Shown piece by piece: positions 1,179-63,906 of a stretch of 64,000 nucleotides of DNA. Position 1 is the stretch's first letter; each line of letters begins with the position of its first letter. This stretch comes from Candidatus Bathyarchaeota archaeon (lineage in GTDB: Archaea; Thermoproteota; Bathyarchaeia; Bathyarchaeales; Bathycorpusculaceae): contig JAGTQX010000010.1 in assembly GCA_018396675.1 (NCBI GenBank), forward strand, positions 1 through 64,000, read 5' to 3'. The translations under genes were made by a program, and so were the position numbers. The notes beneath the pieces were generated by a model. The model was given only the letters and a program-made list of their open reading frames with translations, ran no database searches and had not been told where the DNA came from.

Positions 1179-2384
1179 TTAAAATACTTGCCCATTTTCC
1201 GCCGCTTCAATCACGGCTTTTACTGCGTTTCCCAAGCCATCATATTTCGCCACTTCTTTCCGAATCCTTCTGAGTCTTTTAGGTATCTCACCCTCTAAAA
1301 TCTGTTTAACGTTTTTTAGGAGTTTTTCTCTTGTTAATTCCTTTTGTTGAATGATTTCTGCAACGCCAAGCTTTTCGGCTTGTATTGCATTCCAAAGCTG
1401 TTCCGTGTGATTTGGCGTGGGCACAAGTATCATTGGCTTCCCATAACACAAGCACTGCGTTAGAGTTCCATGTCCAGCGCGTCCAATAACAAGGTCGCAA
1501 GCCTTTAAGTATTCGAAACGATTCGGAATCCATTTATAAATCGTTAGGTTGCCGTGGCGCACCGGGTCAGTGTCAGCGTTTGGATAGCCAAGAGACATAA
1601 CAATTTCATAATCTTCTGGAAAGTTTAGCAAAATTTTTCTCAAAATCCCAATGAGAAAAGCTCTTTCTCTGATTGGGCCGCTTATGGGAACAAAAAGAAC
1701 TGGCTTATCAAGTGGCAGTTGCAGCTCCTTTCGCAGTTCCTCCTGAGTGGGCAGTTCCTCTGGTCTAACCTCCAAAATTGGACCTATCAACTTTACACTT
1801 TTTCTGTAGGATTTTGGAATTGTTAAGTTTCCAGCGCAAATGGTGTAGGGTGGCGGGAAATCTGGAATTAAAACAGTGTTTCCGCCAGTCCATATTTTCC
1901 CGATAATAGTGAGCGTTATGGAATCCGCGAATTTTGCTAGGCGAAGGAAACGTTTCTTTCTGGGTATTATAACCTGAAACTGGTTTAGTATGCAGATTCT
2001 CGGAATCCCTAAAACTCTTGCCGCCAATATCGGTGAAGCTCGAGAATCTGAAACAACAACATTTGGTCTGAAGCCTTCAATAAACCTTATTTCAGCGTTA
2101 ATCTGCCTTAAAAGGGTGAAAGAAGCCAAAAAAGGACCAGGATTTACCGCCGTCTGCTTAAAATCTACAGTTCCGTCAGGCTTAACTTGGAAGCCTATTG
2201 GTGGAGCCTTTATTAAGGGAAGTTTTTCTCGTTCAATATAACGTATGCCCTCGCGGTATGTGGAAAAAACTACCTCAAAACCCTCATCTAAAAGTCTCTT
2301 GGCTATAGGAACACATCTTCCAACATGCCCTAAGCCGATGCCGCATGGAGCAAAATAAACCCGCATGGGCTTATTTCCCGCCAA
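1179..2384 (-). CDS. GT28/MurG-like glycosyltransferase of the MJ1255 type
   Basis: A 401-residue GT-B fold glycosyltransferase. The N-terminus has the GIGLGHVGRCVPIAKRL loop typical of MurG-like enzymes and of the archaeal MJ1255 (TIGR00661) family. The C-terminal half has the nucleotide-sugar site pattern GRAGHGTLTQCLCYGKPMILVP followed by EQLWNA. No signal peptide or membrane helix is seen, so it probably works at the cytosolic membrane face. Acceptor and donor cannot be read from sequence. Its start overlaps the end of the AMMECR1 gene by 14 bases, suggesting one transcript. Confidence 0.85.
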   Translation of the reverse strand: MAGNKPMRVYFAPCGIGLGHVGRCVPIAKRLLDEGFEVVFSTYREGIRYIEREKLPLIKAPPIGFQVKPDGTVDFKQTAVNPGPFLASFTLLRQINAEIRFIEGFRPNVVVSDSRASPILAARVLGIPRICILNQFQVIIPRKKRFLRLAKFADSITLTIIGKIWTGGNTVLIPDFPPPYTICAGNLTIPKSYRKSVKLIGPILEVRPEELPTQEELRKELQLPLDKPVLFVPISGPIRERAFLIGILRKILLNFPEDYEIVMSLGYPNADTDPVRHGNLTIYKWIPNRFEYLKACDLVIGRAGHGTLTQCLCYGKPMILVPTPNHTEQLWNAIQAEKLGVAEIIQQKELTREKLLKNVKQILEGEIPKRLRRIRKEVAKYDGLGNAVKAVIEAAENGQVF

Positions 2385-3798: not shown

Positions 3799-4416
3799 AT
3801 GATTGGTCTATATACAAAAAATATTGATGAAGTCTGGTTTGGAGTTGCTTGTGATGACAAAGAAGTTTTTGCGGCGTACTTCGCCTTCAGTCGAGAAAAA
3901 GTTCTCAGTAGTTTGTTGAACGCCATTCCTTATAACATGCCATTTCAGCAGTTTGGAGAAACTTCGACTCTTGCTGAACATGTATTGCACGTCTTAAAGG
4001 ATGCTTATGACGGAAAAGGCTCCAATGAAACTTTGCCATTAAGCACCAAACACCTGTCAAGTTATGCAAGAAAGGTTATTGCGGTTGTTTCCATGGTGCC
4101 TTTAGGGTATGTAACCTCTTATGGTTCTGTGGCAAGGGTTGCTGGGGGAAGCCCGAGGGCTGTTGGTCGTGTTATGGCTTTTAACCCGTTCCCGCTGATA
4201 GTTCCATGTCACAGAGTAGTCTCTTGGGATTTTACCTTAGGCGGATATGGCGGCGGTCTGGATATAAAACTGGCAATTTTAAAGCGTGAAAAGCAAGGTT
4301 ATTCTGTTGAAGCCGAGGCTTCCGTGTGCGGTGGAAAATTGCGGTTGTTTCCCGTTGAGTTCGTGCTTGATAAGTTGGAAAAATTGGGTCGGGGAGTAAA
4401 TATTAAAAGCGTTTAG
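3799..4416 (+). CDS. Methylated-DNA--protein-cysteine methyltransferase-like protein
   Basis: A 205-residue protein with the MGMT/Ogt DNA-binding and active-site domain in its middle: VPLGYVTSYGSVARVAGGSPRAVGRVM, then the acceptor-cysteine motif PCHRV and LGGYGGGL. It would repair O6-alkylguanine by suicide transfer to the PCHR cysteine. The N-terminal ~80 residues are divergent, and about 35 residues extend past the usual end. The ATG at 3799 follows a TATA-like ttctataaatcc about 35 bases upstream, so the leader is short. Gene order with nadM is same-strand, 28 bases apart. Confidence 0.9.
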   Translation: MIGLYTKNIDEVWFGVACDDKEVFAAYFAFSREKVLSSLLNAIPYNMPFQQFGETSTLAEHVLHVLKDAYDGKGSNETLPLSTKHLSSYARKVIAVVSMVPLGYVTSYGSVARVAGGSPRAVGRVMAFNPFPLIVPCHRVVSWDFTLGGYGGGLDIKLAILKREKQGYSVEAEASVCGGKLRLFPVEFVLDKLEKLGRGVNIKSV

Positions 4417-4444
4417 AGGTTACACTCAAGAGAGTGGTGGTGTC

Positions 4445-4969
4445 ATGGTTAAACGTGGACTTTTTGTCGGTAGATTCCAGCCCTTCCATTTGGGGCATTT
4501 GGGCGCGGTGGAAGATATTTTGAAGGAGGTTGATGAACTTGTGATAGTTATAGGGAGCGCCCAGTACAGCCATCGTATAGATAACCCTTTTACGGCTGGT
4601 GAAAGGCTTGTTATGGTTCGTAGAGCTTTAGAAGAGGCAAAGATAGATAATTCGCGAATATGGATAGTGCCGGTGCCAGACGTGCATCTGCACATGATGT
4701 GGGTTTCCGCTGTTGAGGGTTATACTCCACGTTTTGATGTTGTTTACTCTAATGAGCCTTTGACACGGAGGCTTTTTATAGAGGCTGGTTACACGGTCAA
4801 ACCCATACGCTTCCACAGAAGGGACGTTTATTCCGCAACAGAAATTAGGGAGAGGATGTTGATCGGGGGAAACTGGGAGGAACTTGTTCCCAAAAGTGTG
4901 GCTGCTTTTATAAAAGAGATTGACGGCACCAAAAGGCTTCAAGACTTGACAAAAAGCGATAAGGTGTAA
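4445..4969 (+). CDS. nadM: Nicotinamide-nucleotide adenylyltransferase, archaeal NadM type
   Basis: A 174-residue enzyme joining NMN (or NaMN) and ATP to give NAD or its deamido form. The N-terminal GLFVGRFQPFHLGHL carries the HxGH nucleotidyltransferase motif, IGSAQYSHRIDNPFTAGER is the archaeal NadM signature, and the C-terminal YSATEIRERM corresponds to the ISSTxIR element. Length matches archaeal NadM. ATG 4445 is preceded by a ggtggtgtc purine-rich stretch. Confidence 0.95.
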   Translation: MVKRGLFVGRFQPFHLGHLGAVEDILKEVDELVIVIGSAQYSHRIDNPFTAGERLVMVRRALEEAKIDNSRIWIVPVPDVHLHMMWVSAVEGYTPRFDVVYSNEPLTRRLFIEAGYTVKPIRFHRRDVYSATEIRERMLIGGNWEELVPKSVAAFIKEIDGTKRLQDLTKSDKV

Positions 4970-5091
4970 CTTTATTCCTATTCTTAAAGTAAAGAAAGGT
5001 TATTAAATTTCAAAGAACTTAAATTAAAAGGGTTGAAACTGAATTATTTGCGTTTCGCCTTAACGGGAAACGTTTAGTGGTTGGATGGAAG

Positions 5092-54643: not shown

Positions 54644-54698
54644 ATGTAAATCATGAATCCGTATAGTAAATCAGCAGTCTTCAAGGATGTTTGCAAAT

Positions 54699-55478
54699 AT
54701 GGCAAAATCAGAAAACGTCAAAAAAGAAGAACAAGCAACAGTGGCTGAATCAAACGAGGATAAACCGGAAAAACAGGAAATCGAAAAGCTAAAATTCAAT
54801 GTAGAAAAACTGTCTGAAGAGTTAAACACTGCAGTAGCAGAGCTTAAAAGATCAATAATTGATATACGGTCAGCAGTAAGCGAAATTGAAAATCCATTCA
54901 ACCTTTTACGTGTAATATCAAGCGAAAAAGACTTGAAAAAATTGAATGGTGAAAGACTCCCGCCTGGAGTTAAATCCCTAGTACTTGGAAAACCTGAAGA
55001 AAAAACAGAAGAAAGAACAGAAACATTACCAAAACCCACTGCGCCTTTAATGCCTGCACCAGTTTTTGCTCCTGACAAAGAAAAGGAAGCTTTTGAGGCG
55101 AAGGAAACCGCGGCGGCAACAACAGAAGAAGAGAAACAGCGCCCGAAAAGCGAGTTACCTCCATCTGGAACTGTTTACTTGGACTGGGTTTGGTCGCTTC
55201 TCGATTTAGGATTCTCGCCTGACGACATAAAACAACTTTCAGAATCTTATGAACGGTTAGGCTTCTTGCCAGAAGGCTCCAACGAACAAGTTTATTCCCT
55301 AGCAATAGCGGCTGAAAAAGCAAAATCTAAGGGACTCACAAGAAGCAAACTTTTGCTTAACATGTATAAAGCATCAGCAATTTCTGGGATGTGCATAGGT
55401 TTAGAGGACGTGAAACGGTTGATTTCAATAGCTGAAGGACGAGTTAGAGAGGCAAAAAATGCGAAAAGGGTTGCCTAA
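54699..55478 (+). CDS. Archaellum accessory protein, FlaD/E-like
   Basis: About 259 residues from ATG 54699 (AAGGATG eight bases upstream); ATG 54687 is the alternative. The N-terminal charged coiled coil contains DIRSAVSEIENPFNLL, a FlaC/D motif. A Pro/Glu/Ala linker leads to a C-terminal domain TVYLDWVWSLLDLGFSPDDIKQLSESYERLGFL, like the FlaD/E 'WL..L...G...l...l.yY..lGW' domain. In euryarchaea this protein docks the archaellum motor to chemotaxis components; none is encoded nearby. Its stop overlaps the arlG ATG. Confidence 0.75.
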   Translation: MAKSENVKKEEQATVAESNEDKPEKQEIEKLKFNVEKLSEELNTAVAELKRSIIDIRSAVSEIENPFNLLRVISSEKDLKKLNGERLPPGVKSLVLGKPEEKTEERTETLPKPTAPLMPAPVFAPDKEKEAFEAKETAAATTEEEKQRPKSELPPSGTVYLDWVWSLLDLGFSPDDIKQLSESYERLGFLPEGSNEQVYSLAIAAEKAKSKGLTRSKLLLNMYKASAISGMCIGLEDVKRLISIAEGRVREAKNAKRVA

Positions 55479-55978
55479 TGGGATTTTCTCTAACGCTATC
55501 GCACATCATAATGGTTATTTCCTCTGTTTGTTTAGCGAGCGCCTTCTCCGTATATGCGTTCTACACGGGAAACCTTGTTCAAAACGAATTGGCGCAAAAT
55601 GTTAACGACTACAAGAGAATAGTCAGCATGCAGCTGGAGATAGTCTACGCAACGATAGACAACTCTACAAACCCGCCGCACTTTGTAATCTACGCCAAAA
55701 ACATCGGATACCTTTCACTTACAGACTTCACCTTCTTGGACGTTTACGTCGGCGAATACGGAAAAGCACAATTGTTCCTTTACAACGCGGCGGCAGAGGC
55801 TGGAAGTGGACAATTTAAAGTGACCACAGCCAATGGAGACCTCGTATGGGAGCCGCGTGAAACAGTCACAATACGCGCTTATCCATTAAACAATGTGAAC
55901 GGAACAATTTTCGAAGCAAAGCTAGTGCCTTCAAAGGGAATAGGCAGCAGTTACCTCTTTCCAGCGCCGCCGTCTTGA
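55478..55978 (+). CDS. arlG: Archaellum stator-like protein ArlG (FlaG)
   Basis: 166 residues: one N-terminal membrane helix (LSHIIMVISSVCLASAFSVYAFYTG) followed by a beta-sandwich external domain. The gene order D/E-G-F-H-I-J points to ArlG, which with ArlF anchors the motor to the S-layer. The GFxLTLSHII start resembles ArlF/G. Distinguishing G from F rests on order, so the label could be swapped with the next gene. Confidence 0.8.
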   Translation: MGFSLTLSHIIMVISSVCLASAFSVYAFYTGNLVQNELAQNVNDYKRIVSMQLEIVYATIDNSTNPPHFVIYAKNIGYLSLTDFTFLDVYVGEYGKAQLFLYNAAAEAGSGQFKVTTANGDLVWEPRETVTIRAYPLNNVNGTIFEAKLVPSKGIGSSYLFPAPPS

Positions 55979-55997
55979 GGAGAGGAGGATTCAAGGC

Positions 55998-56522
55998 ATG
56001 GGGTTTTCGGTTACAATAACATCATCCATCATTCTAATAGCTATGTTCGCAATATCAACCTCTTTTCTGATAACGCTTTTCCAAGGATTAAAGGAGATAT
56101 CTTACATTGCTGAAAATTACGTTAGCCGTAACAGAGAAAAACTGGATGTTGCCTTGCAGTTGGAAGTGTATCCGGTCAACGCTACTTTATGCAACATAAC
56201 GGTAAGAAACACGGGGTATAACGTTATTTTCCTAGAAGACCAGTCAGGCTTCAAATGGAACACTATACTGCTTTCTTATGGCAATGAGTCTTTCTGGGTT
56301 TCCTACTCCATTGAGGATTATGAAGTTTTAGAAGTTAAGGTTTCAGGAACAAGCTATACCTTTACGCCAAACAGCCACAACTACATAGAGTCTGGAGAGG
56401 AAGCACTAATCTTTTTTAACATTCCAAGCGGAGCGCCAGAAATTCCCGTGAACGGGCTGGTTTCAGTTGTTTTTGTTACGCATTATGGAGTTGCAGCCAA
56501 AGCGGAGGCGGTTAGAGAATAA
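55998..56522 (+). CDS. arlF: Archaellum stator-like protein ArlF (FlaF)
   Basis: 174 residues, N-terminal helix (SIILIAMFAISTSFLITLFQG) then a beta-sandwich domain with NITVRNTGYNVIF and SYSIEDYEVLEV. This arrangement fits ArlF, which binds S-layer protein and restrains the stator. A purine-rich gaggagaggagg lies upstream. Its stop overlaps the arlH start. Confidence 0.8.
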   Translation: MGFSVTITSSIILIAMFAISTSFLITLFQGLKEISYIAENYVSRNREKLDVALQLEVYPVNATLCNITVRNTGYNVIFLEDQSGFKWNTILLSYGNESFWVSYSIEDYEVLEVKVSGTSYTFTPNSHNYIESGEEALIFFNIPSGAPEIPVNGLVSVVFVTHYGVAAKAEAVRE

Positions 56523-57223
56523 TGAAAGTTGTAAGTTTAGGAATTACGGAACTTGACAGAGACCTTGGCGGCGGAATTCCTCATCCAAGCCTCATATCTA
56601 TTGAAGGCGATTATGGTTCTGGAAAAACCATTTTTGTTCAGCAAATAGCAAGCGCAATGCTCAACACTGGATTACGAGTCTGCATCATAACAAGCGAAGC
56701 AACGGTTAAGGAGTATTTGTCAATGATGCGTTCCGTGAAACTCGACGCAGACGGCTATTACCTTTCAGGACAGCTTAACATTTACCCGCTACACATTGAA
56801 GGCGGAAGATGGAACGACTTCCTAAGCTCATTCTTTCTAAAAGTAACCTCAAACTTTCTCGAATTAAAAAAGCAATACTATGATGCCGTGATAATCGACA
56901 GTCTAAGCGTCTTAACAGTGAACACTCCAAGATCTGAGTTCCTCACTTTCGTTACAAGAATGAAAAACCTGGTGTCAGACGACAGGACGGTTGTTGCCAC
57001 TTTTCACCCAGAATTTCTTTCAGAAGACACAATCATGAAGTTGAGAGCCAGCTCAGATGTTTACCTCGTGCTGAAAAATGCTAGTATCTCCGGAATCGAC
57101 GTCAAAGTGCTGAGAGTTGTAAAGCTTTGGGGAGTAAGCGGCGAAAGAAAAAGCGCGATAACTCTTGAAATTAACCCGCAAATCGGCTTAAGAGTCATGC
57201 CGTTAAGCGGAGTAAAAGTGTAG
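56522..57223 (+). CDS. arlH: Archaellum ATP-binding protein ArlH (FlaH)
   Basis: 233 residues, RecA/KaiC-like: ELDRDLGGGIPHPSLISIEGDYGSGKTIFVQQI with the Walker A, VIIDSLSVLT as Walker B and an intact P-loop lysine. ArlH forms a ring on ArlI and acts as a nucleotide-dependent switch for assembly or rotation. TAATG junction with arlF. Confidence 0.93.
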   Translation: MKVVSLGITELDRDLGGGIPHPSLISIEGDYGSGKTIFVQQIASAMLNTGLRVCIITSEATVKEYLSMMRSVKLDADGYYLSGQLNIYPLHIEGGRWNDFLSSFFLKVTSNFLELKKQYYDAVIIDSLSVLTVNTPRSEFLTFVTRMKNLVSDDRTVVATFHPEFLSEDTIMKLRASSDVYLVLKNASISGIDVKVLRVVKLWGVSGERKSAITLEINPQIGLRVMPLSGVKV

Positions 57224-57232
57224 GAGGAAACA

Positions 57233-58918
57233 TTGTTGGCGAGTAAGCTAAAGCTGAACTTGAACCAAAAACTTCCAAGCTTCAAGCTGTCGTTGTTCAA
57301 GAAAGAAGAAGAGGAGAAAAAAGAAGATGAAATATGGCCATTCAAGCGGGAAATATGTGAAACGTTAGAAGAAGCATTAACCGCGCATCCATACTTGAAG
57401 ACGTATCTAGATTCGTTGCCAGACAAGCCCAGATACACTTTAAACATTGACTTGGAAGAGTACAGCAAAGAAACCAACATTCTATACCCGCTGGGCTTAG
57501 GAATATACACGCATATCGATATTGGCGGAGAAATTGGAAGGTACAATCTGATAGAGCCTGAAAAACCGGACAGTAAACTTTTAGACGAACTTGAAGCCGC
57601 TGTCGCAATGCTTGTTGGAGACAAGGAGTATAAGGAAAACAAAGAAAACGTTTTAGCTTCACTTTTTAGACAAGCCATCAAAAAGAAAATGGTTAAAATC
57701 CCCAAAGACAGAGACGAAGGCGCAATACTTTACCATTTTCTGCGGGAAAAAATTGGACACGGCTTTCTAGACGGTTTCTTGGCTGACCCATGGCTGGAAG
57801 ACGTGAGTATCCCAGGAGCAGGCAAAGTTTTCGTTTATCACAAGATGTTTGGCCATCTTGAAACCAACGTTGATGTGACAAAGGAAGAGATTAACAGGTT
57901 GCTGCGGAATATATCAGAGAGATATGGTAAAGTCTTAAGCTACACACATCCGATAATAGATATACACTTGCCTGACGGTTCCAGGTTCAACATAGTTTAC
58001 GGCGAAGACATAAGCCTCAGAGGAAGCAATTTTACGATTAGAAAGTTTCCAAAAGAGCCAATTTCGGTGGCGCAGTTAATCCGTTGGAAAACTTTTTCGC
58101 CGGAGTTAGCCGCATATCTCTGGATGCTTTTCGAAGTTGGAGTTTCAGCAATGGTTTGTGGAGAAACAGCTTCAGGAAAAACCACGACTCTAAACGCTCT
58201 CACCGCTTTCATAAACTCTGACTCAAAAATAATAAGCATAGAAGAAACTCCAGAAGTGAACCTGTTCCATAAGAACTGGATTAGAGAAGTAACGCGGCTG
58301 CATACTGGTGTTCCAGTGACAATGTTTGACCTTCTAAAAGCCGCTTTGAGGCAGAGGCCGGACTACATAATTGTAGGTGAAATTAGAGGCGAAGAAGGCA
58401 GAGTGGCCTTTCAAGCTATTGAAACGGGGCACCCGGTTTTGTCTACAATGCACGCTGGAACATTAAGTCAGCTTTTCCAGAGGCTTACTTCGCACCCCAT
58501 CGATGTTCCCAAAACGCACATTGATGGTTTAAACTTGGCTGTTTTCCAAGCGAGAATGGAACGAGGAAAACGGTTCATACGGCGAGTCACGTCAATCAAC
58601 GAGATAATAGGATACGAGTCTGATGAGGGCAGGCTTAATTATTTGCCAACTTTCATTTACGACGCGGACTTGGACAAAATAAGGTTTATGGGTTCAAGCT
58701 TTCATCTGGAGTCAAAAGTTCTCACATTTAGGGGATGGGGCAAAGAAAGATTAAGGGAGCTCTACGACGAGCTGAAAGCCAGAGCAGAAATCCTCACTTT
58801 CCTATCCGAAAACTTCCCAACATACACGGATGTTTGGAAAACATGCATTGCTGTCCGGGAAAGAGGTGTCTGGGAAGTTTATCGTAAAGTCAAAGAGATG
58901 AAGATTCCTTGGGAGTGA
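57233..58918 (+). CDS. arlI: Archaellum motor ATPase ArlI (FlaI)
   Basis: 561 residues, type II/IV secretion ATPase family: Walker A GETASGKTT, Asp box, Walker B IIVGEIRGEEGR and the His box THAGT-like STMHAGTLSQLF. N-terminal ~150 residues are ArlI-specific and acidic. It powers both assembly and rotation. Starts at TTG 57233 with AGGAGG five bases upstream. Confidence 0.95.
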   Translation: MLASKLKLNLNQKLPSFKLSLFKKEEEEKKEDEIWPFKREICETLEEALTAHPYLKTYLDSLPDKPRYTLNIDLEEYSKETNILYPLGLGIYTHIDIGGEIGRYNLIEPEKPDSKLLDELEAAVAMLVGDKEYKENKENVLASLFRQAIKKKMVKIPKDRDEGAILYHFLREKIGHGFLDGFLADPWLEDVSIPGAGKVFVYHKMFGHLETNVDVTKEEINRLLRNISERYGKVLSYTHPIIDIHLPDGSRFNIVYGEDISLRGSNFTIRKFPKEPISVAQLIRWKTFSPELAAYLWMLFEVGVSAMVCGETASGKTTTLNALTAFINSDSKIISIEETPEVNLFHKNWIREVTRLHTGVPVTMFDLLKAALRQRPDYIIVGEIRGEEGRVAFQAIETGHPVLSTMHAGTLSQLFQRLTSHPIDVPKTHIDGLNLAVFQARMERGKRFIRRVTSINEIIGYESDEGRLNYLPTFIYDADLDKIRFMGSSFHLESKVLTFRGWGKERLRELYDELKARAEILTFLSENFPTYTDVWKTCIAVRERGVWEVYRKVKEMKIPWE

Positions 58919-60495
58919 AACCGATAAAAATATCCAGAGATTCCGTTGTTGCTGTTCTACTGCTGGTTCCGTCGCTTCTTTTTGCACTCTACTACTTGTC
59001 TGCGGGCAAAATGCTTGAGGCCATCATCATTTTACCAATAAGCATCGGCGTTTTAATGTTTCTTAAATACATGTCACGTAAACGTTACCCAAAAAAGGTG
59101 GATTTCATGTTAACGACTGTTGTCTTCCACCTGTACGGCTTGTCTCTTGGAGAAACTTCGCCAGATGACCTTGTCAACACAATCGCAGAAAACAGGGAAT
59201 ACGGCTTTTACAGCAGAATTTTTCAAAAAATTCGCAGTTTAGCCAAAGACTTCGGATACGGCATTACAAAGGCTACAGCTCACGTTGCAGACATCGTAAA
59301 GCCACCGTTAAAGGACATTCTTGTGCGTTTTACAAACGTGTTTTCAAGCGTGGAGCCTAAAGGCTACTTGGAGATGGAGTCTTCAATGCTGATTGAAGAA
59401 TATTCAGGTTATTACACGCGTGCGCTTGAAACCTTGAAAACTCTTGGAGGAATCTTTACGTCGTTCCAAAGCGTAACCGTGTTTCTAATAATGACCATAG
59501 TGATTATGGCGATTTTCATGATTGACCCAAGCGCAATAGCTTTCGGCTATTTTATCGCTGCGTTCGCCGTCATAATGATGTACGTTCTTTTCAGGGCGTC
59601 ATCTCCAAGAGAAAACCTTGTTTACATAGGGAAGTATCCGCCAAAACTTTATGTGGCCATGAGATGGAGCCTAATCGCTACTGGAGCCTCCTCAACATTG
59701 CTTGCAGTTCTTCTATACTTTTCTAAAGGTCCCGCCTTCGCTTTTATGGCGTTAGGTTTAGGCATGATTATGCCTGGAATTTTTGGGTACATGCTTGAAA
59801 AGCATGTTAACAAGATTGACAGAAATTATCCGACTTTTTTGAAGGCTTTGGGTGAAAACTTGGCTTCAACATCAGATTTGAGGGCTGCTTTTTCTTATAT
59901 AGTTCAGATGGAACTAGGCCCTTTTAAGAAGCTTGTTAAAGAGGCTTTGGCAAGGTTGAGGCTTGGGATAGGGCATGAGCAAACTTTTGAAACGCTTTCT
60001 TCTGAGGCTGCTTCCTATCAAGTGCATATTAGTAACAGGATATTTTTGGATTCTATGAGTAGAGGAGCGAATCCTCTTGAGATAGGCAACGCTTTGGGAA
60101 ATCGTGTTGTCAAGTTTATCGAGTTTCGGAAATCTAGGGATGTAACTGCGAAGGGTTTCCAAATGATAATAATGGTTATGCAGCCGCTCACCGTTGTCTT
60201 GTTGGTTGTTGTGCAAGTGCTTGCAGAGTTTATGTCCCAGTACCTAGTTAATCTGCCATATTTTGGATTTAACGCTATTCCGATACCAGTAATTGAAACT
60301 GGGAACATAATTCTAGTTTTCATAATGGCTGTTGTTAACGCTTTGACAATCAAAGAGGTTTCAGCTGGTTACTGGGGAACATTTTTCCTCAACTTGGGGA
60401 TTTTGTTGATTGTCAGCGGTATAACGTGGATGGCTGCTGGAGTCTTTATTGAAATGGCTTTAGGCTCGATGCCGAGCATCGAGTTACCTGTGTAA
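58909..60495 (+). CDS. arlJ: Archaellum membrane platform protein ArlJ (FlaJ)
   Basis: 528 residues, polytopic inner-membrane protein of the GspF/TadB superfamily. Two conserved cytosolic modules (LETLKTLGGIFTSFQSVTVFL...; LGENLASTSDLRAAFSYIVQ...GANPLEIGNALG) separate the helices. It forms the membrane core on which ArlI sits. TTG/GTG start overlaps arlI by 10 bases. Confidence 0.94.
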   Translation: MGVKPIKISRDSVVAVLLLVPSLLFALYYLSAGKMLEAIIILPISIGVLMFLKYMSRKRYPKKVDFMLTTVVFHLYGLSLGETSPDDLVNTIAENREYGFYSRIFQKIRSLAKDFGYGITKATAHVADIVKPPLKDILVRFTNVFSSVEPKGYLEMESSMLIEEYSGYYTRALETLKTLGGIFTSFQSVTVFLIMTIVIMAIFMIDPSAIAFGYFIAAFAVIMMYVLFRASSPRENLVYIGKYPPKLYVAMRWSLIATGASSTLLAVLLYFSKGPAFAFMALGLGMIMPGIFGYMLEKHVNKIDRNYPTFLKALGENLASTSDLRAAFSYIVQMELGPFKKLVKEALARLRLGIGHEQTFETLSSEAASYQVHISNRIFLDSMSRGANPLEIGNALGNRVVKFIEFRKSRDVTAKGFQMIIMVMQPLTVVLLVVVQVLAEFMSQYLVNLPYFGFNAIPIPVIETGNIILVFIMAVVNALTIKEVSAGYWGTFFLNLGILLIVSGITWMAAGVFIEMALGSMPSIELPV

Positions 60496-60613: not shown

Positions 60614-60692
60614 CGCTTTATTATGTCTTAAGACTCGCTATAGTGTTGGTGGAGGTAGTGGTGGAGTAAGTATAAGAGTAGGTGGTGGAAAT

Positions 60693-61574
60693 ATGGGAGA
60701 AAAACCAAACATCAAATGCCAAAAATGCGGGTACGAATGGCACACACGGTCAAAGCTTAAAATGGTGACATGCCCTTCATGTAACCAAAAAATTCCAAAC
60801 GTTGCATTGTACAAACGCCGCCGTTTAGTAAAGGCGCTTGTGCATCAGAAACGTGCAATTATAGGTTTAGAAGCCGCAATAGTTCTTATAGCCTTCGTCA
60901 TAATTGCCGCAGCCTTCAGCTTCATGGTCGTCAACCAAGGCTTGTACGCCACGGAAAGGGGCAAAGTCGTAATTCAAGAAGGTTTAAAACAAGCGAGCAC
61001 ACCCTTGACGATAGACGGAACAACGTTTGTCAGAACGACTCCTGACGGAAAAGCAGTAAACGTCATAATAATTCCAGTAAAAGCCTTCGGAGTGAAATTC
61101 GTAGCCGTTGGGAGAAACCAAACAGTCATAGTCCTACGCGTTGGCGAAAGAGCGTGGGCAAACGCCTATTTGGGCGTGTTATACACGGGCTATCCGAATG
61201 GAACATATTATTATACTGATGATGAGACGTACGACCCAACTGGACAGGAATTCGACGACTTTGTAGGTTTCAGATACGCCAATCAAACCACTGTAGGAGA
61301 AGAACGCAACGTTTACGTAAACGGAACATACGCCAGCGGATATAGTGAGGGGTTGTTCACTGGAGCGGTTCTTGCTATTGCTTATAGCAACGGCGACGAA
61401 GCATTAGATACGAATGAGAAAGGCTTCCTAATAATAACGCTATCGGAGGACGCTGCAGCTCCTGCCAGATCACAGATAAACATTGAGATAAGGCTTGAGA
61501 AGAGTGCTACGCTTTCAGTTGAGATTACGATACCGGAGTCAATGCCGAAGAACACGTATGTGCCAATATTCTAG
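60693..61574 (+). CDS. arlB: Archaellin (type A) with an N-terminal zinc ribbon before the signal peptide
   Basis: 293 residues. Residues 9-30 form a zinc ribbon (CQKC...CPSC). Then comes the class III signal peptide region KALVHQKRAIIG|LEAAIVLIAFVIIAAAFSFMV; PibD/FlaK should cleave after Gly58 and the hydrophobic helix assembles into the filament core. The outer domain (residues ~115-293) is larger than in the sister type A archaellin and Thr/Asn-rich with many N-x-S/T sites. A GTG at codon 50 (60840), with AAAGG five bases upstream, could yield a product with a normal short leader. ATG 60693 has a clear GGTGG. First gene of an A-B pair. Confidence 0.9.
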   Translation: MGEKPNIKCQKCGYEWHTRSKLKMVTCPSCNQKIPNVALYKRRRLVKALVHQKRAIIGLEAAIVLIAFVIIAAAFSFMVVNQGLYATERGKVVIQEGLKQASTPLTIDGTTFVRTTPDGKAVNVIIIPVKAFGVKFVAVGRNQTVIVLRVGERAWANAYLGVLYTGYPNGTYYYTDDETYDPTGQEFDDFVGFRYANQTTVGEERNVYVNGTYASGYSEGLFTGAVLAIAYSNGDEALDTNEKGFLIITLSEDAAAPARSQINIEIRLEKSATLSVEITIPESMPKNTYVPIF

Positions 61575-61586
61575 GAGGAGAAAGTC

Positions 61587-62210
61587 ATGCGGAGAATAAC
61601 GAGAAACAAAAGGGGTATTGTTGGCATCGAAGCCGCCATCGTCCTCATAGCCTTTATTATAATTGCTGCAGCGCTCAGCTATGTAGTTATCAACATGGGT
61701 TTCTATACAACGCAAAAGACGAAAGAAACAATGCAGGGAGGCCTCGACGAGTCTTTAACCGCCCTGCAACTTGATGGAATAGTGACTGCAAAAACCGACA
61801 GTTCCGGGCACATAGAATATTTAGCCATTCCAGTGAAACTTTCTGCTGGTCGTGCTGCTATAGACCTTGGTGAAAACGCGGTTGTGGTTTCGGTATATCT
61901 TCAAAACGCAACGCTTATGAACGTGTATCAGGGCGCTACTCCGGCGAATGAAACAACTTGGGATGCTCTGATCAGTGCTCTTGGTTTAACTAGCGAAGGC
62001 GCAAAGTTCGCCATATATAATGGGAATAATAACACGGTGATTGAGTCAACCGAAAAAGCGTTTCTGATAATCTGCCTCGACGAGCAACATAGGATTAGTG
62101 ACTACGAAACTGTAAAGATTGAGGTCAGAGGTGCAAAGGGCGCCGCTTTGACGGTTGTACGAACTGCTCCAGGCGGCATGCTTCCAGATTCGTTTGTAGA
62201 CCTGGGTTAG
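61587..62210 (+). CDS. arlB: Archaellin (type B), first copy
   Basis: 207 residues. Short leader MRRITRNKRGIVG|IEAAIVLIAFIIIAAALSYVV, then INMGFYTTQKTKETMQGGL. N-glycosylation-like sites (NAT, NET, NNT) lie in the outer domain; it ends APGGMLPDSFVDLG like the other type B copy. GGAGGAG precedes the ATG. It sits 12 bases after the type A gene, so the pair is probably co-translated. Confidence 0.92.
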   Translation: MRRITRNKRGIVGIEAAIVLIAFIIIAAALSYVVINMGFYTTQKTKETMQGGLDESLTALQLDGIVTAKTDSSGHIEYLAIPVKLSAGRAAIDLGENAVVVSVYLQNATLMNVYQGATPANETTWDALISALGLTSEGAKFAIYNGNNNTVIESTEKAFLIICLDEQHRISDYETVKIEVRGAKGAALTVVRTAPGGMLPDSFVDLG

Positions 62211-62278
62211 CCCCGCTTTCCCATTTTTATGCTGCGTCATTGCCGTCGGTGGTTTTCGTTGTTTTTCTTTGTCGGATT

Positions 62279-62293
62279 TCGAATTGAATTCGA
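62279..62293. repeat. Palindrome tcgaatt-g-aattcga
   Basis: Seven-base perfect arms around one base, in the 193-base gap between the two archaellin pairs and about 70 bases before the TATA-like box of the second pair. Possible operator. Confidence 0.45.
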
Positions 62294-62357
62294 TATTTTA
62301 TTCATTTTTTGAATCAAAATTAGCAATTTTACCAATCTAAATTATCATTTCATAACT

Positions 62358-62368
62358 CTTAATATAAG
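62358..62368 (+). promoter_or_regulatory. TATA-like box of the second archaellin pair
   Basis: cttaatataag, about 40 bases before the ATG at 62404; good archaeal TATA shape. Indicates that the second pair can be transcribed on its own. Confidence 0.45.
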
Positions 62369-62403
62369 AACAAGCATAACTCAAAAAGCACCAAAAAAGG
62401 AAG

Positions 62404-63045
62404 ATGAAAAAAATGAACTGGAAGAAAACTTTGATGAAACTAGTAAAACAGAAACGTGCCATGGTGGGTCTAGAAGCTGCAATAATCCTCATAGCCTTCG
62501 TCATCATCGCAGGCGCCTTCAGCTTCATGGTCATCAACCAAGGCTTATTTGCAACAGAACGAGGCAAAACAGTAGTTCAAGACAGCCTAAGACAAGCAAG
62601 CACACCCTTGATAGTGGACGGAAGCATATACCTAAATGCTGACTCATCAACAACTATTAACGCTATTGTCATCCCATTAAGGGCTTACGGTGTTAAGTAT
62701 GTGGCGCTCGGAGAAGACGCAACCTCTGTTTCCCTTCAAGTGGCTGGAAGCGCTTGGCCAAACGTATATGAGGGCATAAACGGAACATTTACTACGAGCG
62801 ACAATTTCGGCGACCTTGTTGCCAACGTAACTACTGGTCACGCGGCTCTGTTCATCCAAAACAGTAATGGAGACGACTCTTTGGATTCCAACGAGAAAGG
62901 CTTTCTTGTTATATCTTTGAGTGCTTCTGCAAATGCTAGAGACCACATAGTTGTTGAAATCAAGCCAGAGAAAGCTGCGCCGTTGACAATTGACTTCTAC
63001 GTGCCCGAATCTTTGCCAAGCGGCTGGATAACGGTGGCTGGCTAA
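62404..63045 (+). CDS. arlB: Archaellin (type A), second copy
   Basis: 213 residues. Leader MKKMNWKKTLMKLVKQKRAMVG|LEAAIILIAFVIIAGAFSFMV (about 22 residues, no zinc ribbon), then INQGLFATERGKTVVQDSLRQASTP as in the first type A copy. The outer domain is shorter than that of the zinc-ribbon copy. It ends LPSGWITVAG. ATG 62404 or 62413 can start it. Confidence 0.92.
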   Translation: MKKMNWKKTLMKLVKQKRAMVGLEAAIILIAFVIIAGAFSFMVINQGLFATERGKTVVQDSLRQASTPLIVDGSIYLNADSSTTINAIVIPLRAYGVKYVALGEDATSVSLQVAGSAWPNVYEGINGTFTTSDNFGDLVANVTTGHAALFIQNSNGDDSLDSNEKGFLVISLSASANARDHIVVEIKPEKAAPLTIDFYVPESLPSGWITVAG

Positions 63046-63046
63046 A

Positions 63047-63691
63047 ATGTTCGCAAAAAAACTGTTTAAAAACCGGAAAGGCATTGTCGGTGTAGAAGCC
63101 GCCATCGTTCTCATAGCCTTCCTGATAATCGCCGCGGCATTAAGCTACGTGGTCATAAACATGGGCTTCTACACAACACAAAAAACAAAAGAGACAATGC
63201 AGACAGGCCTCGATGAATCATTAACAGCTCTACAACTGGACGGCGTGGTCACAGCGAGGACCAACGACACCTCACCTCACATATTGTATATCCTTGTCCC
63301 AGCGAAGCTCTCAGCGGGTAGAGGCGCAGTAGACCTAAGCACAAGCTCAGTCGTAGTGTCGGTGTATTTGCCAAACGCTACTTTAATGAATATATATGAA
63401 GGCTCAAATCCATCAACGGATGATGTGGCATGGGACGATTTGGTTAGCACTTTGTCGCTGAGTGATAAACAAGCCAAGTTCGCAATCTATAATGACGACG
63501 GCGACACTGTGCTGGAATCGAACGAAAAGGCTTTCCTGCTGATACGCCTAGACTCAACAGACGCACAAAGCATGCTAAGCGAATACCAAACAATAAAAAT
63601 TGAAGTCAGAACTGCAAAAGGCGCCGCACTAACAGTAATACGCACAGCCCCAGGCGGCTTAGCGGCAAACTCTTTCGTCGACCTAGGCTAA
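63047..63691 (+). CDS. arlB: Archaellin (type B), second copy
   Basis: 214 residues. Leader MFAKKLFKNRKGIVG|VEAAIVLIAFLIIAAALSYVV, then INMGFYTTQKTKETMQTGLDESL, nearly identical to the first type B through the core helix; the outer domain differs. It ends APGGLAANSFVDLG. Its ATG lies one base after the type A stop. Confidence 0.92.
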   Translation: MFAKKLFKNRKGIVGVEAAIVLIAFLIIAAALSYVVINMGFYTTQKTKETMQTGLDESLTALQLDGVVTARTNDTSPHILYILVPAKLSAGRGAVDLSTSSVVVSVYLPNATLMNIYEGSNPSTDDVAWDDLVSTLSLSDKQAKFAIYNDDGDTVLESNEKAFLLIRLDSTDAQSMLSEYQTIKIEVRTAKGAALTVIRTAPGGLAANSFVDLG

Positions 63692-63795
63692 TAAAGGCTT
63701 TCCCCACTCCACCACCCACCTCCACCATTTTTTCTACAACCCACTACCTTTTTATTTCGTCAAACATTTCCCAAAAAAAGAATGTTTTTGAAAAG

Positions 63796-63906
63796 CGCCG
63801 GGGGTGGGATTTGAACCCACGCGGCCCAAAAGGGCCACAGGCTTTTAGGCGCTTCCAAGTTTTTTCGTCTCCAGGCCTGCTCCCTACCTGACTAGGAGAC
63901 CCCGGC
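63796..63906 (-). tRNA. tRNA-Ser (anticodon GGA) with a 25-base intron
   Basis: Minus strand: acceptor gccgggg/ccccggc, discriminator G, long variable arm gtggccc-tttt-gggccgc, T-loop ttcaaat. The anticodon stem caggc/gcctg encloses 32 bases; removal of 25 leaves a seven-base loop with GGA, the canonical position 37/38 insertion. CCA not encoded. A TATA-like cataaaaaat lies about 28 bases upstream of the 5' end. Confidence 0.88.

Follow-up and report, generated by a model that had tools for sequence, protein, structure and literature searches.

The first archaellin gene of an archaellum locus in Candidatus Bathyarchaeota archaeon (GCA_018396675.1, contig JAGTQX010000010.1, positions 1 to 64,000; this 64,000-nt stretch is referred to as the window) encodes an archaellin, here called type A1, whose class III leader contains a predicted zinc ribbon. 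As far as comparison of the sequences can tell, this is a real and conserved domain architecture with a single origin, and of its layout and conservation we are nearly certain. Both parts are known, the archaellin on the one hand and the archaeal CGYxW micro zinc ribbon on the other. Their fusion appears to be undescribed, and a full-text search of the open-access literature found no description of it. The discarded leader seems to be used inside the cell, most likely for the control of filament synthesis or assembly. The features of the locus are given in Table 1.

Table 1. Features of the archaellum locus. Positions are those of the window; a slash in a motif marks the predicted cut.
Feature	Position	Strand	Remarks
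Motor/platform genes: arlD-like, arlF/arlG pair, arlH, arlI, arlJ	54687..60495	+	KaiC-like ATPase, T2SSE by Pfam
TATA-like element TTTATTA of the archaellin unit (putative)	60617..60623	+	conserved in 14 species
5' leader with GTRG repeats, C-free, unstructured	60646..60692	+	seven GTRG motifs
Type A1 archaellin precursor with zinc-ribbon leader	60693..61574	+	293 aa
Zinc ribbon (predicted), residues 4-36, C9xxC12-x14-C27xxC30	60702..60800	+	kept 14/14; pN/pS 0.167; AlphaFold2
Variable basic linker, predicted helix, ending in KRAIIG	60801..60866	+	predicted cut after G58, between 60866 and 60867
Mature archaellin part	60867..61571	+	235 aa; PF01917 2e-14; PDB archaellin 7txi E 7e-26
Type B archaellin, normal short leader	61587..62210	+	
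Type A2 archaellin, no ribbon	62404..63045	+	
Type B archaellin, normal short leader	63047..63691	+	
C-rich tail CCCCACTCCACCACCCACCTCCACCA + T run, complementary to the 5' leader	63703..63731	+	not conserved throughout the group

The archaellin and its zinc-ribbon leader

The precursor begins with MGEKPNIKCQKCGYEWHTRSKLKMVTCPSCNQKIPN. It is identified as an archaellin by its family score (PF01917, 54.7 bits against a cut-off of 29.5; TIGR02537 of NCBIfam is also above cut-off), by the class III signal motif RAII-G/LEAAIVLIAFVIIAAAFSF with a hydrophobic N-terminal helix, and by its place directly downstream of the motor genes arlD-J. The clear relatives of its body are PDB archaellins. These traits it shares with ArlB/FlaB, from which it differs in the leader. 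Published archaellin leaders are typically 6-12 residues long (PMC4307647), a usual rather than a strict range, whereas the A1 leader has 58 residues and those of ribbon archaellins generally have 55-59. The possible leaders of the ribbon-less archaellins (62 of the 75 collected from relatives) are mostly 10-23 residues.

Within the leader, the variable basic linker separates CxxC-x14-CxxC from the class III site, KRAIIG/LEAA, which is intact. An earlier, sequence-only reading of the window had described this arrangement, with cysteines at positions 9, 12, 27 and 30 and G58 lying 28 residues beyond C30, and had remarked that the second type A copy lacks the ribbon; the translations bear it out on every point. 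It had also staked its case beforehand on the four cysteines being kept among homologues, and a search for ribbon-archaellin fusions found all four in 14 of 14. Thirteen further leader residues (K4, N6, K11, W16, T18, S20, L22, V25, P28, S29, Q32, K33 and N36) are likewise invariant in the 14-row alignment. The start codon, which may be ATG, GTG or TTG, lies three to four residues ahead of K4 in every case, and the cleavage motif is intact throughout, being either invariant or conservatively kept. Both ribbon and linker are strongly basic, the leaders carrying a net charge of +9 to +13.

Mean pairwise identity over the 14 rows is 80% for the ribbon, 32% for the linker, 75% for the first mature segment and 53% for the central insert. 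The corresponding pN/pS values, read with synonymous differences near saturation in all segments, are 0.167, 0.615 (residues 37-52), 0.235 and 0.427. Both measures imply that the ribbon is made as protein and that selection acts on its amino acids, whereas the linker can change freely in sequence; the linker's length stays within 18-23 residues. A chance or frameshift artefact is ruled out by the 14 in-frame homologues and the purifying selection on the ribbon codons. A separate ribbon gene joined by sequencing error was also considered and rejected, there being no separate start or stop in any homologue.

The A1 leader has the two CxxC knuckles with conserved spacing by which a zinc ribbon is recognised. 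Among the named zinc-ribbon families of Pfam and NCBIfam, nothing matched it above cut-off and only sub-threshold matches were returned; a PHROGs search with the ribbon gave weak matches only. AlphaFold2 predicts short strands (residues 11-40, pLDDT about 81-87) and, at 37-56, a helix that continues into the membrane helix. The model of full-length A1 was poor (mean pLDDT 53.8) and was for that reason left out of the fold search, in which the leader had no match under E 0.001 (best Z 3.5). Solved RNA-binding ribbons gave no significant fold or sequence match. With no family model above cut-off and only weak structural matches, zinc binding is a prediction made from the cysteines.

The closest relatives of the ribbon are free proteins of 37-55 aa with the signature C..CGY.W.T.S....VTCP.C, found in archaea and in virus-like contigs. 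Nine loci with free micro zinc ribbons of this type lie in mobile-element-like or virus-like settings, and several of the genes adjoin integrase, Cas1-like or phage-like genes, as judged by eye. N-terminal copies of the same ribbon type occur on a phosphoribosyltransferase and a NuoE-like [2Fe-2S] protein (L152, 865-1620, minus strand; L094, 1477-2136, plus strand). On two sediment contigs, one labelled Aenigmatarchaeota and the other Halanaerobiaceae, a ribbon of this type precedes one predicted membrane helix. One-domain zinc-finger micro-proteins of archaea, such as the C(P)XCG proteins of Haloferax and the stand-alone CGYxW-VTCP proteins, also consist of a single small CxxC...CxxC ribbon, and swarming of Haloferax needs such free proteins (PMC6562870). 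The A1 ribbon differs in being fused to an archaellin, and it would become free only if the peptidase releases it.

Distribution, origin and gene order

The same fusion is present in 13 other genomes at 60-90% overall identity, 12 of them in the same family. Among 256 genomes of the class, every same-family genome with filament archaellin genes has the ribbon (13/13), and archaellins without it occur in six families (f3, f5, f9, f18, f25 and f27). The one carrier from another family, G194, also has a second archaellin set, in which the ribbon is lacking. A maximum-likelihood tree built from 80 mature sequences unites the 14 ribbon archaellins in a single clade (support 100/99); one change accounts for it, and the ribbon was thus gained once, in a lineage of Bathyarchaeia. 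No further ribbon archaellin was found in 398 genomes of the phylum or in a peptide-pattern scan of 84,980 species. The sole free form met among the homologues is a relic in G191 (L089, about 1465-1614, minus strand), which has the same promoter, the GTRG 5' leader and an intact ribbon reading frame; its start codon has changed from ATG to ACG and its archaellin is decayed.

Gene order in the family runs arlD, the arlF/G pair, arlH, arlI and arlJ, then ribbon-A1, B, A2 and B. The order of the motor genes is conserved; arlD and arlJ, which have no Pfam match, were named by position and reading. B types are absent in genus g12, and in G194 ribbon-A1 and the motor genes are divergently oriented. 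Where both sets were mapped in ribbon-less relatives, the archaellins mostly head the motor operon. The compared gene orders therefore place the ribbon gene always first in an archaellin unit of its own. The A-B-A-B alternation formed by A1 and the genes at 61587-63691 suggests paired subunits, as in Methanocaldococcus villosus, where two alternating subunits make up the filament (PMC8821640). In G027 the first type B gene is broken by stops or a frameshift (L193/L037, about 4214-5064).

Promoter, 5' leader and C-rich tail

All 14 species have a TTTATTA-type element some 70 nt upstream of the start codon. The sequence-only reading had allowed that transcription might begin inside the ribbon and leave it untranslated; this element is the sole conserved TATA-like one, so the transcript should include the ribbon and a start within it is unlikely. 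The same reading had offered an internal GTG at 60840, preceded by AAAGG, as a start that would skip the ribbon. The AAAGG-GTG is indeed present in the window, but neither V50 nor its codon is conserved and the ribbon is under strong purifying selection, so that a ribbon bypassed in this way, as a mere by-product, is very improbable. M24, an alternative ATG start within the ribbon, is not conserved among the 14 either.

The leader between promoter and start codon is poor in C in all 14 ribbon genes and holds 5-8 GTRG motifs per 45 nt. None of 138 control gene starts has more than 2, and ribbon-less archaellins lack the repeat in their upstream region. The core 16-mer is single-copy, with no other site in the genome within 2 mismatches. 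An upstream in-frame coding extension (Gly-rich here, Trp-rich in G022) was considered and rejected: the reading frame differs between species, and the repeat is therefore non-coding. It could be a protein-binding or ribosome-binding element.

Immediately after the last archaellin gene there is a C-rich stretch with T runs (63703-63757), single-copy in the genome, which may pair with the 5' leader or act as a terminator. Similar tails were seen in G003, G008, G022, G027 and G052; they are weak or absent in G013, G031, G194 and genus g12. Pairing of the two mRNA ends was rejected as a general feature, being strong in six species and weak in G013, G031 and G194. Cognate 5'-3' pairs score only slightly better than non-cognate ones, and those of G000 and G022 are not clearly beyond base composition. 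Farther on, a tRNA gene (63796-63906, minus strand; 44 bits with Rfam) with what appear to be an intron and a long variable arm, resembling tRNA-Leu, was missed by ARAGORN.

Possible roles of the leader

In the class III pathway the leader of an archaeal precursor lies on the cytosolic side of the membrane and is cut there (PMC4187195, PMC4307647). The host genome has a gene of the prepilin peptidase family (peptidase A24), and such a gene turned up in 13 of the 14 ribbon genomes searched. Given this pathway, the peptidase and the intact sites, the ribbon is expected to label the precursor until it is cut free, and not to enter the filament; we regard its cytosolic retention and cleavage as probable. 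The N-terminus of A1 would thus stay in the cytosol, the ribbon waiting at the membrane on the precursor until the prepilin peptidase frees a zinc-ribbon peptide of about 58 residues. The basic ribbon might then sense how much archaellin precursor is present. Whether still attached to the precursor or already released, it would bind a cytosolic partner, most likely the GTRG 5' leader of the mRNA that encodes it, and thereby match archaellin synthesis to export, as a cis-encoded counterpart of bacterial flagellin homeostasis. The feedback step is advanced tentatively, at well below an even chance, and the whole chain, from removable cytosolic leader through sensing of the precursor pool to feedback, is tentative to the same degree. 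Its most specific form is doubtful: here the peptide freed in step with export (or the uncut form) would bind the GTRG leader, perhaps also the C-rich tail, and thereby couple export to translation in cis. The likeness to Hag-FliW-CsrA, in which the cytosolic level of a filament protein controls translation through the 5' leader, is one of proposed logic only, since the sensor would here be in cis and no CsrA or FliW is involved as far as is known. Against feedback, the GTRG leader may be no more than a strong site for ribosome binding. Ribbon and GTRG leader share a single evolutionary origin, and their association therefore counts as one event and not as independent evidence.

The ribbon might instead be a docking tag. 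Before the cut it would bind a component of the archaellum platform (ArlI, ArlJ, ArlH, ArlD or the peptidase) and decide where or when A1 matures and inserts, for example as first or base subunit; after the hand-over it would be removed. This too is a possibility of roughly a third in our estimation. It agrees with the presence of the ribbon on just one of two to four archaellins, always the first gene, and with a fairly constant linker, predicted to be helical, that would hold the ribbon close to the membrane. Membrane proteins with a Zn ribbon at the N-terminus and double Zn-ribbon proteins are known from archaeal type IV pilus loci (PMC4858521); those of arCOG07264 and arCOG06883 are tied to the pilus machinery, as the A1 ribbon is to the archaellum, but are separate proteins and not fused to a subunit. 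ZitP of Caulobacter, a one-span protein on which pilus biogenesis and polar placement depend (PMC5182063), likewise has a cytosolic N-terminal zinc finger followed by a membrane helix, in the context of a surface appendage. Its zinc finger (2nb9) is among the best structural matches to the A1 leader (Z 3.2, rmsd 2.7 over 42 residues), a weak match that lies within noise. ZitP is, however, neither a pilin nor a substrate of prepilin peptidase and belongs to a different zinc-ribbon family; its zinc_ribbon_5/MJ0042 domain and periplasmic DUF3426 are not found in A1, where the archaellin domain alone exceeds the Pfam cut-off. Docking is further weakened by the archaellum genes of ribbon-less relatives, beside which no trans-encoded or free ribbon of this type was found. 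We lean slightly towards feedback over docking because the 5' element is co-inherited and gene-specific, and because the ribbon gene heads a separate unit.

Conservation of the ribbon like that of a functional domain would also suit a base anchor, in which some of the precursor escapes cleavage and its ribbon keeps the filament base, or a non-filament form of A1, in the membrane or attached to the motor; uncut precursors would presumably be stable membrane proteins. With the cleavage motif kept in 14/14, the peptidase family present and no sign of impaired cutting, an anchor seems unlikely. A part in co-translational targeting or timing, the folded basic ribbon binding the ribosome, SRP RNA or anionic lipid and delaying folding or cleavage until insertion, would fit its position at the extreme N-terminus and the positive charge of the leader. 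This role is of similarly low probability: paralogues from the same operon are exported without a ribbon, and the conserved residues are not only basic.

Class III leaders are usually viewed as short, disposable tags. A conserved domain, predicted to be folded, lies inside this one, which suggests that the discarded leader has a job. How the export of filament subunits is sensed, or how they are ordered, has been answered in bacteria but, to our knowledge, not for archaellins in archaea. The ribbon leader offers a testable route by which archaea, with their type IV pilus-like export, may sense archaellin export or order subunits. If feedback is the correct reading, a filament subunit would carry its own cleavable regulator, coupling export to translation in cis.
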